Shown: piece by piece, positions 23,773-31,309 of the stretch
Layout of the letters: each line of letters opens with the position of its first letter
Numbering within the stretch: the stretch's first letter is position 1
NCBI RefSeq assembly: GCF_900142985.1
Contig: NZ_LT670849.1
Coordinates: 4,542,501 to 4,606,500, forward strand
Reading direction: 5' to 3'
Length of the DNA: 64,000 nucleotides
From: Bradyrhizobium erythrophlei
Lineage (GTDB): Bacteria > Pseudomonadota > Alphaproteobacteria > Rhizobiales > Xanthobacteraceae
Program-made: the position numbers and the translations under genes
The notes under the pieces: model-generated
The model's input: the letters and a program-made list of their open reading frames with translations, nothing else
What the model was told of the DNA's origin: nothing
The model's database searches: none

Positions 23773-24402
23773 TCAACCTTCGAAATCGCCGGCACTTCTC
23801 CTCGGCGCTGTGACGGTCGAGCGCTGCAGGATTGGAGGAGAGTGGTGACGCGGCTCGCGCGGCGTGGGACGTTCCGAAGGGTCGCGTCCGAGCTTGGATT
23901 GCAGCTCGACGAGGTCGGTGAACACGTCAGCCTGGCGGCGTAATTCGTCGGCGATCATCGGCGGCTGGCTCGAAATCGTCGAAATCACGGTCACCCGCAC
24001 GCCCCGCCGCTGCACGGCCTCGACCAGCGAACGGAAGTCGCCGTCACCGGAGAAAATCACGATCTGGTCGACATGCTCGGCAAGCTCCATCGCGTCGACG
24101 GCAAGCTCGATATCCATGTTGCCCTTCACCTTGCGGCGGCCGCTGGCATCGATGAATTCCTTCGTCGCCTTGGTGACGACGGTGTAGCCGTTGTAGTCGA
24201 GCCAATCGACCAACGGCCGAATCGATGAGTATTCCTGGTCCTCGATGATGGCCGTGTAATAGAATGCCCGGACCAGCGTGCCCCGACTTTGGAATTCTTT
24301 GAGAAGGCGCTTGTAGTCGATGTCGAAGCCGAGCGTCTTGGCAGTCGCGTAGAGATTGGCGCCATCGATGAACAGTGCAATTCTGTCGGAAAAAGATTTC
24401 AT
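23773..24402 (-). CDS. NYN domain (LabA/DUF88-like) protein, copy A
   Basis: A 209-residue protein starting MKSFSDRIALFIDGANLYAT (ATG 24402; a frame to 24501 adds nothing conserved). It is a NYN/PIN-like nuclease-fold protein of the LabA/DUF88 family. Acidic residues sit in FIDGAN, GNMDIELAVDAM and FSGDGDF, the usual metal site, and the C-terminal tail is basic and Pro-rich. Family members are predicted RNases; in cyanobacteria LabA is a clock-output factor. A close paralogue lies at 27874-28476 in the same orientation, and the two bracket the LuxI-P450-LuxR genes. Confidence 0.88.
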   Translation of the reverse strand: MKSFSDRIALFIDGANLYATAKTLGFDIDYKRLLKEFQSRGTLVRAFYYTAIIEDQEYSSIRPLVDWLDYNGYTVVTKATKEFIDASGRRKVKGNMDIELAVDAMELAEHVDQIVIFSGDGDFRSLVEAVQRRGVRVTVISTISSQPPMIADELRRQADVFTDLVELQSKLGRDPSERPTPREPRHHSPPILQRSTVTAPRRSAGDFEG

Positions 24403-24555
24403 GCAAGTACTGACCTTTGGAGGTGATTTAGCGACCACATCGATGGTTTCATCGCGAGTCGAGATTAGGTCTCGCAATAACTGGCGCGAAGCCATGATCA
24501 ATTTCGGTCCGCAATCTCTGGGGAAATAGCGCCCGTCTTACGGTACCTGAGGTAT

Positions 24556-24957: not shown

Positions 24958-26247
24958 TTACGCAACACGCTGCCATTTCCTTCTCTGAGTCAGGGGTCGC
25001 AATCGCAGCTTGATGCGAGGTGGCAACAACGTGACCTGAGGCGTTGGCTTGCCCGCAGGAACACCGGATAAGATCTCGAGCTCACAGGAAGAGGAGAGCT
25101 CCAGCGCCAGCAATTGGAGTTCGAGCAAACCGAGGCCAATACCGACGCACGCGCGCGGACCAAGGCCAAAAGGCATGAAAGCTGGCGTGTTGTATGAGCG
25201 GTCCAGTCGGAAGCTGTCGGGATCAGTCCAGTAGCGTTCGTTACGCTGCATTTGCCATGAACTGATGATAAGTGAAGTTCCGCGATTGAGTTGAATTCCA
25301 CCAAGCTCCTGCGGCGCACGAACTTCTCGCGATAGCCAATAGAACGGCGGATAGAGCCTAAGAACCTCGCGCGCCACGCGAAGGCTGAGATCAGCCTTCG
25401 GCAGTTTCAACGGATCGATCTCTCCGGAATCGCCCATGACGGCTTCCGATTCTTCGGCGAGTCGGGTAGCAAGCCCTGGCACGGTCGCGAGATAATAAAG
25501 CAACCAAGCAGCGGCGTTTCCGGTCGTGTGATGACCGGCTAGCAATAGCAACAAGATTTCGTCTCGCATGTCGCCGGCTGATAAATTGAGACTTTCCAGC
25601 GCTTGCAACAACGTCGCTGAACTCGCGCGATTGCGAAGTCGGTCGACGACCGCCCCCATGATCGCACGGCTTTGGCCTAATTCGCGCCGCTTGATGAAGC
25701 TGCGCCACGGTGTTCGCGGCAACACGCGAAAAAGGCTATCCGCCATTTCTTCTTCCGCTATATGCACGGCTTCCATCAATGCGGATTCATCGGCCGCTGT
25801 TAGCGCGCCATTGCCGAATAGGAGCGCGACTATGATCCGAAGAGCGAGTGGCGCTGTGACGTCATGAGCGTCGAATGACGGCTCACGGACCAACAGCGAA
25901 GCGTGCCTGCGTATTAGGCCAGCGATTTGCGGCACGAAGTCGTTCATGATGCCGCGCGCCAGATGCTGATGAATAACTCCCCGCCGTCGCTGGTGCTCTG
26001 GGCCGCTCAATGTGAGTGAGCTCGCGCCGATTACTGTCCGAAGCTTATGGACCAAACGCCCTTTATCGATCGCCGATTCGTCAGCCTTGAGAATACTCTT
26101 GGCGAGCGCTGCGTCGGTTACCAGATAAACCGGTGAGAGACCCAGGTTGAGCTGCACCAAAGGAGGCGCGTCCGGAGAGCTGTGCGTCTTAAATAGCTCG
26201 AGTGGATTATGCAGAAAGGCGCTCACGTCCGAAAACGGATGCTTCAT
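24958..26247 (-). CDS. Cytochrome P450, coupled to the LuxI-type synthase
   Basis: A 429-residue class-I bacterial P450. All landmarks are present: the I-helix AGHHTTGNAAAW (acid/alcohol pair region AGxxTT), the K-helix ExxR in REVLRLYP, and the heme-binding loop FMPFGLGPRACVGIGLGLLE with the cysteine ligand. No signal or anchor, so it is soluble and needs a ferredoxin partner, which is not nearby. Its ATG lies 41 bases inside the 3' end of the LuxI gene, so the two are translated from one mRNA. That context suggests it oxidises the acyl-homoserine lactone, its acyl precursor, or a metabolite made under its control. Confidence 0.92.
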   Translation of the reverse strand: MKHPFSDVSAFLHNPLELFKTHSSPDAPPLVQLNLGLSPVYLVTDAALAKSILKADESAIDKGRLVHKLRTVIGASSLTLSGPEHQRRRGVIHQHLARGIMNDFVPQIAGLIRRHASLLVREPSFDAHDVTAPLALRIIVALLFGNGALTAADESALMEAVHIAEEEMADSLFRVLPRTPWRSFIKRRELGQSRAIMGAVVDRLRNRASSATLLQALESLNLSAGDMRDEILLLLLAGHHTTGNAAAWLLYYLATVPGLATRLAEESEAVMGDSGEIDPLKLPKADLSLRVAREVLRLYPPFYWLSREVRAPQELGGIQLNRGTSLIISSWQMQRNERYWTDPDSFRLDRSYNTPAFMPFGLGPRACVGIGLGLLELQLLALELSSSCELEILSGVPAGKPTPQVTLLPPRIKLRLRPLTQRRKWQRVA

Positions 26248-26854
26248 CGATGATCTCCATGGATTGTGTCAGTTCGAGCAGTGCCTTCACGGCAGGCGTG
26301 GGCTTTCGCGAAATCGGTATTTCGCCGGCAACCGCAAGGATCCATCGCCCGTCGTCGTGAAACCCGACAATCTGAACGTCGCCATATCGGGACGTCGAAA
26401 GGCCAATCCGATTAAGCAGCCGTTCGTGAGATAGCTCAGCCAGAGCTACCAAAGCTGCGGCGTTGCGCGCCAACGCGAAGCGGACCATGAGGCTGTAGAG
26501 CACAGTGCTGGCCTGCCGGTGTGCGGCAAGCACCCCGAACCGACTAATCTCGACGTAATCGGCCGACTTCGGAAACGACCGATTGGAAGCCATGTGCGAA
26601 AATATCGTGTGAGCCAGATAGGGCCGGTCGCAGCTTATGGCTCGAAAGCAGCCGATGATTTGACCTTCGGCCGATAGGGCGCAGTAGATCGCGTCTTCGG
26701 TGTCGAACTCGTCGCGTTCGCAGCCGTTCTCGACCGCCAGCATCCAGCCCAGTTCGCGGACGAACAGCGCGTGACGTAACCGAAGTAGCGACAGTGCTAG
26801 GTCGGGGTTCGTCGCGGCCGAGAAAAACACCGCTTTGTATTTAGGTTGCTGCAA
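26207..26854 (-). CDS. LuxI-family acyl-homoserine-lactone synthase
   Basis: A 215-residue autoinducer synthase that joins S-adenosylmethionine to an acyl carrier (acyl-ACP or acyl-CoA). The invariant residues of the family are all visible: R27, F31 and W37 in RLRHALFVRELGW, D48 and D51 in RDEFD, R71 in GCFRAI, E102 and R105 in VEISRF. The start is TTG 26854 behind GGGGCGGCAAG. The acyl substrate cannot be read from sequence. It overlaps the P450 gene by 41 bases, and the LuxR gene diverges from it, with starts 92 bases apart. Confidence 0.9.
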   Translation of the reverse strand: MQQPKYKAVFFSAATNPDLALSLLRLRHALFVRELGWMLAVENGCERDEFDTEDAIYCALSAEGQIIGCFRAISCDRPYLAHTIFSHMASNRSFPKSADYVEISRFGVLAAHRQASTVLYSLMVRFALARNAAALVALAELSHERLLNRIGLSTSRYGDVQIVGFHDDGRWILAVAGEIPISRKPTPAVKALLELTQSMEIIDEASVFGRERLSA

Positions 26855-26922
26855 CTTGCCGCCCCAAAGCCGTATTGCGCCAGCCGTAGGAAGATGATGG
26901 GATCGGCATTAAATTTATATTG

Positions 26923-26932
26923 GGAATTTTCC
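26923..26932. promoter_or_regulatory. Candidate operator between luxI and luxR genes
   Basis: GGAATTTTCC, with GGAA/TTCC arms, is the only obvious dyad in the 92-bp divergent intergenic space. It could be a short lux-box-like site, but its arms are shorter than usual and it lies 15 bases upstream of the LuxR ATG. Confidence 0.25.
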
Positions 26933-26946
26933 TAAGGTTTGAGCGG

Positions 26947-27714
26947 ATGAGCGTTCTTGAAGACGATTTAAGCGCGTTAGAGGCCTGCGGCTCGCTCGCG
27001 GAAATTCGTAGGGTTTTCCAACGCATTATCGAGGATTATGGATTTAGCTCGTTCGGCTTCATGGACGCCTCCCATCCATGGGAAGACAACCCCCTCCTTG
27101 TCTCCACGCATAGCACGGCATGGATCGATACCTATCGTGCTGAAAACTTCATCGCTACCGATCCTTGCTTGGCTTTGGCTCGTCGCACAAATTTGCCTTT
27201 TCACTGGGGGAGCGTGCCGCTTCCGACAGTGACAGGCAAACGCAAGCCCGGAGCGATCAAAACCATGGAGGCGGCTCGCGACTTTGGTGTCAACGAGGGT
27301 CTCACTATCCCGGTCCACTATAACGATGCGCTAGGTCGACGTTATAGCAGCGTCTGCGCGCTATTCTGGAAGGATCCTGCCAACCGCTTCTATGCTAGCC
27401 TCAAGCTTAACAGCGTACAACTGCATCTCATTTTACTCTATCTCGCACAGAAGATCGTGGATCTATATGCCGTCGAAATAAGAGCCCAAACCCGAAACTT
27501 TGGCGAACTTCATGCATCACCGTTGACGGATCGTGAGAAGGAAGTCCTCAAATGGGCTGGCATGGGCAAGACCTCTGAGGAAACAGCGGTCATTCTCAAT
27601 GTGAGCCACAAGACCGTTGAGGCTCATATTAAAAGCGCGACTATTAAACTTGGCGCCACTAATAAGACGCAGGCGACGGTCCAAGCGGTTTACCGTGGCT
27701 TGATAGATATCTGA
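26947..27714 (+). CDS. LuxR-family quorum-sensing regulator
   Basis: A 255-residue protein from ATG 26947 (a TTG at 26920 is in frame but lies in the putative promoter). The N-terminal autoinducer-binding domain keeps the TraR-type pocket residues: W and Y in TAWIDTY, DP in ATDPCLA, W in PFHWG and a late G in NEGLTIP. The C-terminal helix-turn-helix starts at LTDREKEVLKWAGMGKTSEE and ends near NKTQATVQAV. It is the cognate receptor by position: divergent and adjacent to the LuxI gene. Confidence 0.9.
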   Translation: MSVLEDDLSALEACGSLAEIRRVFQRIIEDYGFSSFGFMDASHPWEDNPLLVSTHSTAWIDTYRAENFIATDPCLALARRTNLPFHWGSVPLPTVTGKRKPGAIKTMEAARDFGVNEGLTIPVHYNDALGRRYSSVCALFWKDPANRFYASLKLNSVQLHLILLYLAQKIVDLYAVEIRAQTRNFGELHASPLTDREKEVLKWAGMGKTSEETAVILNVSHKTVEAHIKSATIKLGATNKTQATVQAVYRGLIDI

Positions 27715-27873: not shown

Positions 27874-28476
27874 TCACGGCGTCGTGGTGGTCGCCGGATG
27901 CAGGGATTGCGGAGCGTGATGACGCGGCTCGCGCGGGGCAGGACGCTCGGATGGGTCGCGGCCGAGCTTGGATTGCAGCTCGATCAGATCAGTGAATACA
28001 TCGGTCTGACGCCGCAATTCGTCGGCGATCATCGATGGCTGGCTTGAAATTGTTGAGATTACGGTGACGCGCACGCCGCGGCGCTGCACGGCTTCAACCA
28101 GGGGACGGAAGTCGCCGTCACCGGAGAATAACACGATCTGGTCGACATGCTCAGCGAGTTCCATCGCGTCAACGGCAAGCTCGATGTCCATGTTGCCCTT
28201 CACCTTGCGGCGGCCGCTGGCGTCGATGAATTCCTTGGTCGCCTTCGTGACTACGGTGAAGCCGTTGTAATCGAGCCAATCGATAAGCGGACGAATGGAC
28301 GAATATTCCTGATCTTCAATAATAGCGGTGTAGTAGAAGGCACGGACTAACGTCCCCCGACTTTGGAACTCCTTCAGAAGGCGCCTGTAGTCGATGTCGA
28401 AGCCGAGTGTCTTGGCGGTTGCGTAGAGATTGGCGCCGTCAATGAACAGCGCAATCCTGTTAGAAGAAGATGTCAT
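27874..28476 (-). CDS. NYN domain (LabA/DUF88-like) protein, copy B
   Basis: A 200-residue paralogue of the gene at 23773-24402, starting MTSSSNRIALFIDGANLYAT. The same acidic residues (FIDGAN, GNMDIELAVDAM, FSGDGDF) are kept and the two proteins differ at only a few positions across the domain, mostly in the C-terminal tail. The two genes are direct repeats ~4.1 kb apart, with similarity beginning at CAACCTTCGAAATCG beyond the stop codons. Probable RNase; the role is unknown. Confidence 0.88.
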   Translation of the reverse strand: MTSSSNRIALFIDGANLYATAKTLGFDIDYRRLLKEFQSRGTLVRAFYYTAIIEDQEYSSIRPLIDWLDYNGFTVVTKATKEFIDASGRRKVKGNMDIELAVDAMELAEHVDQIVLFSGDGDFRPLVEAVQRRGVRVTVISTISSQPSMIADELRRQTDVFTDLIELQSKLGRDPSERPAPREPRHHAPQSLHPATTTTP

Positions 28477-30525: not shown

Positions 30526-31086
30526 TTAGCCGCCTCGCAGTTGACTGGTAATAGCATTGGCCGCCTTGAAGGTGAGCGCCGTCATGGTGATTGTACTGTT
30601 GCCGCAGGCGGTAGATGGCATGGCGCCGCCGCCTGGAAGGAATAGATTTTCGTGATCGTGAGAACGGCAGTTAACATCAACCACTGAGCTGGCTGGATCC
30701 GCGCCCATGATGGTGCCACCCATGATGTGTTTGCTCTGAACGAACTTTGGTGTGGCTTTGACGTCGATTGCGCCCATCGCCTCGGCAATGCGCCTGCCAA
30801 TTGGCACCGAATAGGTATCGGAGCATTTCCTGACATAATCACCGACGTCATAGTGGATGGCTGGTTTGGGGAGACCAAGCCAATCCTTCTTGTCCGAGAG
30901 TGTCATGCGATTATTCGGATCAGGCAGCATTTCGTGCGCCACCACGATGTCGGCTGTACAGGCGGTCATGCGGCGGATATCTTCATCGAGCGCCTTGCCG
31001 ACGAAACCTTTTTTCAATGCGGCGAAAGTAATGAAGCGATTGCGTCCGAAACCGAAATTGTAGTTAGTCGTGAAGAAACTATGACG
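30526..31086 (-). pseudogene. GMC-type dehydrogenase fragment (C-terminal)
   Basis: Minus strand from about 30954 downward reads NNRMTLSDKKDWLGLPKPAI, then SKHIMGGTIMGADPASSVVD and LFLPGGGAMPSTACGNSTIT. This is the C-terminal substrate domain of GMC oxidoreductases such as the gluconate dehydrogenase large subunit, with the conserved GN-x-T. The FAD-binding N-terminal two thirds are missing, so it cannot fold as an enzyme. The ~45 codons before 30954 look foreign. Confidence 0.75.
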
Positions 31087-31309
31087 CATTCGCTCGAAGC
31101 AGCCGCTGACCGGATTGAAAAGCACGCTGGTGCTCAATTGCGCAATGGGAGAGTGTCTGTGCCGGGGGTTGGAAGCCGGCATGCGTCCGCGGTTGCCAGG
31201 GATTGGACCACGGTTCGCTCAGACAGATATGACTTCTCGCCAAAAGAGCAAATAACGATGAAGGTGACGCTCTGGCTCCGATATTGGGCTGCTTGAGGGA
31301 GGGGACATA

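Follow-up and report, generated by a model that had tools for sequence, protein, structure and literature searches.

The diversity of N-acyl-homoserine lactones (AHLs) is mostly ascribed to the acyl donor chosen by LuxI. At one locus of Bradyrhizobium erythrophlei a luxI gene overlaps a cytochrome P450 gene, and a luxR gene diverges from the pair. The locus lies in a stretch of 64,000 nucleotides (nt) (contig NZ_LT670849.1, positions 4,542,501 to 4,606,500; hereafter the window) of a genome consisting of a single 7.5-Mb contig. Does the P450 belong to the signalling system, and what might it do to the signal? The synthase, the P450 and the divergent LuxR proposed in an initial annotation were confirmed as open reading frames at their positions (Table 1), all above the Pfam cut-off, and the existence of the three genes as described is of high confidence. 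The P450 start does lie 41 bases inside the synthase gene, and the distance of 92 bp between the LuxR and LuxI starts holds with the LuxR ATG at 26947.

Pairing of LuxI and P450 in overlapping genes and fusions

The window LuxI as a protein query found 109 relatives, and the P450 query gave 439 relatives (120 of the 439 listed); many of them lie on contigs of equal length. Loci were drawn from relatives, from the host order, from one plasmid and from a single scan of an 84,980-species collection. After removal of duplicates, all 25 distinct loci with a family LuxI carried a homologous P450 directly downstream. The family loci include those of Bradyrhizobium, Xanthobacteraceae, Microvirga, Aquabacter, Amorphus and a conjugative plasmid of B. 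japonicum; the 41-nt overlap is already noted in the annotation of this plasmid. The pair is not a chance neighbourhood, since it is present in every distinct family locus fetched, and the absence of synteny outside this strain, by which the initial annotation would have been refuted, is contradicted. Among 397 genomes of the host order, the family LuxI was found in 11 and a P450 of at least 446 bits in 12, the next P450s scoring near 230 bits. The twelfth P450 (L140) is at a contig end, with the sequence upstream of it missing; in L120 the LuxR side is missing. As a control, 56 loci (L044-L099) that were retrieved with the family alignment but encode other LuxIs were compared, with flanks of at most 6 kb; 54 had no P450 match, and the remaining two were P450-LuxI fusions (L063 and L067). 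No P450 match was found in 19 further LuxI loci (L012-L030, flanks of about 1.5 kb). The control P450 model was built from matches at E 1e-5, so that very distant P450s could escape it; the model used in the wider survey below was broader.

The exact 41-nt overlap is found in 21 of the 25 family loci (L114, L116, L120 and L128 deviate). A GGA core precedes the P450 ATG in 21/21 of these exact-overlap loci, and the full GGAG in 17/21. The glutamate codons at this internal Shine-Dalgarno-like site show a GAG:GAA ratio of 19:1, versus 105:97 across the remaining luxI (p 9e-5, an optimistic value, the sequences being related). The overlap, the Shine-Dalgarno-like site and the GAG bias together fit translational coupling. 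Moreover, the divergence of LuxI parallels that of the P450 (Mantel r 0.93, 26 pairs; 0/5000 permutations as high). The luxI D203 codon, GAT in 21/21, was not used; this count is circular, the loci having been selected by the ATG that this codon helps to form.

In L063 and L067 a single 686-aa frame matches both the LuxI and the P450 families. A search with the LuxI part of the fusion alone revealed six protein clusters of 665-676 aa, among them one of Limimonas halophila and another of a Rhodospirillaceae metagenome-assembled genome. The fusions belong to a lineage other than the window family. Their P450 domain is N-terminal to the LuxI domain, both domains exceed the Pfam cut-off in the three fusions tested, and an alignment of 8 rows shows no variation at the LuxI key residues. 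A structure prediction of the fusion (pLDDT 56.7 from 8 sequences) was set aside. The L067 contig is labelled Anaerolineae, and its fusion protein is 96% identical to that of the alphaproteobacterial L063; the contig is likely mis-binned. In addition, the LuxI part of fusions P0232 and P0234, and not that of P0230 (three tested), also exceeds the cut-off of FeeM, an N-acyl amino acid synthase.

Screening of 337 alphaproteobacterial genomes with PF00765 identified 66 LuxI places, spread over 52 of the genomes. A P450 was located within 4 kb at 11 of the 66, directly downstream on the same strand in 10 and fused in 1. Three places (L213, L227 and L244) have no more than about 0.6 kb of contig left downstream of luxI, which makes the assessable count 11/63. 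The P450-linked share of the surveyed LuxI genes is about one in six, and the rough chance expectation is 0.04-0.5 of 63, with kinship ignored. Three arrangements can be distinguished. The first consists of overlapping luxI/P450 pairs, in which the P450 has an AGHHTT motif (the window family). In the second, luxI is followed by an AGHETT P450, and luxR lies upstream on the same strand (L214, L216, L218, L231, L243 and L246); the luxI-P450 gaps are 271 nt (L218), 238 nt (L231) and 227 nt (L246) by a crude gene call. The third is represented by the fusion proteins. Additional adjacent luxI-P450 pairs are found in L152, L258 and L263.

Synthase, P450, receptor and promoter region

The window LuxI matches PF00765 at 3.5e-18 (66.2 bits, cut-off 24). 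The catalytic set of LuxI enzymes, which we take to be R, F, W, D, D, R, E and R, is highly conserved in the 58-row family alignment: W37, D48, D51, R71, E102 and R105 are found in 58/58 rows, R27 in 57/58 (the remaining row is a gap) and F31 in 50/58, with Leu in 7/58. The window LuxI falls below the thresholds of the TraI equivalog models NF010408 (68.1 bits versus 292) and NF052393 (67.6 versus 250), and in a quick tree the window-family LuxIs form a separate clade (support 99). The closest solved LuxIs by sequence are 3p2f, entitled 'AHL synthase' (71 bits), and LasI (52.5 bits). Both outscore 5w8a, presumably BjaI (41 bits), and the 4-coumaroyl-homoserine lactone synthase 6wn0 (34 bits); there is thus no specific pointer to the aryl-CoA precursor suggested in the initial annotation.

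The window P450 matches PF00067 above the cut-off (3.4e-44), and its fold is also that of a P450. The ExxR motif (E294, R297) and the haem ligand C367 are kept in 116/116 P450 rows of the family. According to the accessible part of PMC5377825, most mono-oxygenase P450s have an acid-alcohol pair in the I-helix (Asp251/Thr252 in P450cam), which serves protonation of the iron-oxygen intermediate. The family P450s lack this pair in all 116 rows; Thr241 is kept in 116, and the acid is replaced by His240 in 116/116. The substitution is a real oddity because of the role of the acid-alcohol pair in most of these enzymes. The fusion P450s have an AGHETT I-helix in 7 fusion rows. The window P450 does not reach the threshold of the albaflavenone monooxygenase/terpene synthase model NF051859 (94.8 bits versus 700). 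Its structure prediction is good (pLDDT 89.5), and the best-ranked fold matches are CYP175A1, CYP184A1 (also solved with oleate), CYP51, CYP97, CYP46A1 and BM3. The Fer2 family has 34 matches in the genome and 0 within the window, so that electrons must reach the P450 in trans, from ferredoxins whose genes lie elsewhere in the genome.

The window LuxR has the autoinducer-binding domain (PF03472, 2.4e-18) and the GerE helix-turn-helix (HTH) domain (PF00196, 1.1e-15), both above the cut-offs. Its start is likelier the ATG at 26947 than the TTG at 26920, because the TTG sits inside a palindrome. This palindrome may be the LuxR operator; in many family loci a palindrome of varying sequence recurs at a distance of about 70-90 nt upstream of luxI (no shuffle control). 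Among the 36 coupled loci examined, of which L042 and L113 are one locus, LuxR adjoins luxI in 35/36, the exception being L120, which is cut by the contig end. The luxR and luxI genes diverge in the window family, L063, L152, L258 and L263, and share a strand in the six loci of the second arrangement. The ligand pocket was compared at three positions, which we take to be Tyr56, Trp60 and Asp73 of LasR, their roles and numbering being assumed from LasR and TraR. The window LuxR has His, Trp and Asp at these positions. Among 24 family LuxRs, Asp is found in 24 and Trp in 22 (Phe in L043 and L122); a family-wide loss of the pocket Tyr was considered and dropped after a recount, which gave Tyr in 1/24 (L116). 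Four residues ahead of the pocket Trp, the LuxRs of L063 and of 5/6 of the same-strand loci do have Tyr. In the LuxRs of L152, L258 and L263 the pocket-Tyr position is Cys, Val and Val, respectively; L258 and L263 also have Phe for Trp.

Possible roles of the P450

The luxR-luxI-P450 unit may represent a self-contained signalling cassette. LuxI would make an AHL, and the translationally coupled P450 would oxidize its acyl part by hydroxylation, epoxidation, desaturation or further oxidation. The P450 would act most likely on the finished AHL, or else on the acyl thioester or acid used by LuxI. The divergent LuxR would then sense the oxidized signal and control the divergent promoter through the palindrome. 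On the present sequence evidence, we assign a probability of about 0.7 to the reading that the P450 oxidizes the acyl moiety of the LuxI product or of its precursor and that the LuxR senses the modified signal; a function of the P450 in making or tailoring the LuxI signal is likewise considered probable. The substrate and reaction of the P450, its order relative to LuxI, the LuxR preference and the operator are what we infer here. The signal tailored by a P450, as proposed in the initial annotation, stands in part: the conserved pairing, the overlap and the fusions lend strong support to a P450 dedicated to the signal, whereas any action on the acyl chain is still a proposal. In favour of the acyl-oxidizing reading we also count the parallel divergence of LuxI and P450, the acyl-CoA-ligase-type gene of one coupled locus (L218) and the resemblance of the fold to CYP175A1, CYP184A1 and P450 BM3.

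The surroundings of the cassette also bear on the substrate. Beyond LuxR, no neighbour is conserved across the window family (clustering of 29 loci). A cluster that we presume from its sequence to be ABC-ATPase-like occurs in 9/29 loci, at a distance of 6-8 kb to one side or the other, and a presumably transporter-like cluster in 8/29 loci, 3.5-7 kb away (L114-L119, L125 and L127); both are read as background. Ten frames 3' of the P450, one from each of ten coupled loci, were annotated. They comprise two Na/H exchangers, an adenylosuccinate synthetase, a glycosyltransferase, an RTX-type protein, a histidine kinase, one weak HTH match below the cut-off, two frames without a family and one acyl-CoA-ligase-type gene (L218). 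In L231 and L246, HTH and Sel1 genes follow on the opposite strand, and an aminotransferase lies further on in the L231 genome. The unit is thus isolated, which argues that the substrate of the P450 would be the signal or a signal precursor.

Several observations weigh against an acyl-oxidizing role of this kind. No P450 lies within 4 kb at 55/66 of the surveyed LuxI places (three of them too near a contig end), among them the second LuxI of the same genome (L266). One family P450, on plasmid pMSC49b of Methylosinus sp. C49 (L281), has no annotated luxI nearby. The His-for-acid I-helix could signify altered or impaired monooxygenation. Moreover, the structures of CYP51, CYP97, CYP46A1 and CYP3A4 score comparably in the fold search, so that the substrate cannot be read from fold likeness; the fold matches speak for a sterol pocket as much as for a fatty or isoprenoid-type one. 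As a separate observation, the L281 P450 (7868-8917) is a start-shortened copy beside an IS66 tnpB gene.

The alternative that survives best is a sub-case of the same reading, in which the P450 acts before LuxI and provides an unusual acid or acyl thioester that is then joined to homoserine lactone. In one coupled locus, an AMP-binding acyl-CoA-synthetase-type gene follows the P450 by 147 bp on the same strand (L218/L282, 9856-11385, +), and the fusions have their P450 domain ahead of LuxI. However, the window family shows no conserved ligase, and the order of genes or domains says little on the order of reactions; this sequence of steps is possible, though we rather doubt it. It is considerably less likely that the P450 is part of a quorum-regulated metabolite pathway and merely shares the luxI promoter. 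P450s are generally common in quorum-controlled clusters. The accessible part of PMC13136126 places a Bradyrhizobium locus among secondary-metabolism and redox-linked enzymes. No biosynthetic gene, however, is conserved across the family loci, and both the fixed overlap and the P450-LuxI fusions argue against a merely shared promoter. Inactivation of the signal or tuning of its lifetime (a built-in quorum quenching), offered in the initial annotation, is now less likely and the most improbable of the three, given the near-obligate pairing and the fusions, since a synthase fused to the destroyer of its own signal is hard to rationalize, even though a 2007 study by Chowdhary, cited in PMC5479921, is said to have found that CYP102A1 oxidizes AHLs to less active products.

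Genomic setting and comparison with known systems

Table 1. Features of the luxR-luxI-P450 locus in the window (positions counted from the first letter of the window)
Feature	Coordinates	Strand	Remarks
Cytochrome P450, 429 aa, ATG start	24958..26247	-	I-helix AGHHTT, haem motif FGLGPRACVG; closes the presumed luxI operon
LuxI-family acyl-homoserine-lactone synthase (predicted), 215 aa, TTG start	26207..26854	-	PF00765, catalytic residues
Overlap of luxI 3' end and P450 5' end, 41 nt, different frames	26207..26247	-
GGAG, Shine-Dalgarno-like site for the P450, within luxI codons	26255..26258	-
LuxR-type receptor/regulator, 255 aa from ATG, divergent	26947..27714	+
Divergent luxI/luxR intergenic region, 92 bp	26855..26946	no strand
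TTGGGAATTTTCCTAA, imperfect palindrome, 6/8 pairs; candidate LuxR operator	26920..26935	no strand	inferred

Two NYN-domain genes flank the cassette (23773-24501 and 27874-28476, both on the minus strand). They form an 82% direct repeat (23803-24102 versus 27877-28176, spacing 4074), and further copies occur elsewhere in the same genome; gain of the cassette via these repeats is possible. A frame at 30526-31182 (-) contains only the C-terminal GMC-oxidoreductase domain and is remnant-like.

The phylogenetic trees allow a limited view of how the coupling arose. Separate recruitment of the window-family and fusion P450s, once suggested by a P450 tree and an approximately unbiased (AU) test (p 0.005), was withdrawn; the test had miscounted L172 as uncoupled, and in L172 a LuxI lies directly upstream of the P450. 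Once L172 is reassigned, the P450s of the window family and of the fusions share one side of a branch (99/96). Support for placing all coupled P450s on one side is only 58/20; the P450 tree then needs one change, in a count that leaves out L140 and L165 (contig ends). The LuxI tree, poorly resolved and with weak support, needs at least 4 changes. Neither a single nor a multiple origin is claimed, and the best P450 tree allows one origin.

No report of a conserved luxI-P450 family, overlap or fusions was found in the open literature searched (subscription journals and preprints lay outside the scope), and the Limimonas search of this literature gave only general papers. The single 'P450' in PMC4886583 is a primer name. 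A 2026 paper (PMC13136126) describes a locus of this kind, luxI/R locus 1 of Bradyrhizobium prioriisuperbiae BL16A, with a downstream gene labelled as a terpene enzyme, and five unidentified AHLs with the m/z 102 fragment, which its accessible part does not tie to locus 1. The locus is presented there on its own, and the main text does not use the term 'P450' (0 occurrences). In the accessible part nothing was found on cross-species conservation, overlap or fusion. Hydroxylated AHLs are known from the Rhodobacteraceae strain MOLA 401, and the accessible part of PMC5479921 hypothesizes that a P450 modifies the acyl chains; it names a P450 homologue in the genome without a link to luxI, as a hypothesis only. 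R. rubrum is reported to make 3-hydroxy AHLs (PMC3751510, accessible part), and therefore a +16 shift alone would be no proof of a P450. In general, 3-hydroxy AHLs arise without a P450. P450 BM3 (CYP102A1) shares the P450 fold, and a mutant was solved with C10-homoserine lactone according to the title of entry 9iss, which indicates that an AHL can occupy a P450 pocket; however, BM3 has about 18-21% identity to the window P450 among the entries listed, and 9iss holds an engineered mutant rather than an enzyme dedicated to AHLs.

If true, a dedicated co-translated or fused oxygenase would be an extra tailoring step for AHLs, before or after assembly. P450 tailoring could account for AHL-like masses that match no standard, and the products might give soil and root communities private channels. 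It is predicted that without the P450 the signal mass would change and the receptor response would be lost; the fusion proteins offer a single-polypeptide system for in vitro work. The odds appear about even that P450-finished homoserine lactones constitute a widespread, unrecognised branch of AHL signalling in Alphaproteobacteria, ranging from overlapping pairs to bifunctional P450-LuxI proteins, with His-I-helix P450s perhaps performing unusual acyl chemistry, private signals and co-evolved LuxRs. The canonical LuxI/LuxR systems, for which we take LasI/LasR, TraI/TraR, BjaI and RpaI as examples, share with this family the Pfam domains, the LuxI catalytic residues and the adjacent luxR. In contrast to them, the window family adds a constant overlapping or fused P450, a LuxI clade of its own, and a residue other than Tyr at the LasR-Tyr56 equivalent in 23/24 LuxRs.
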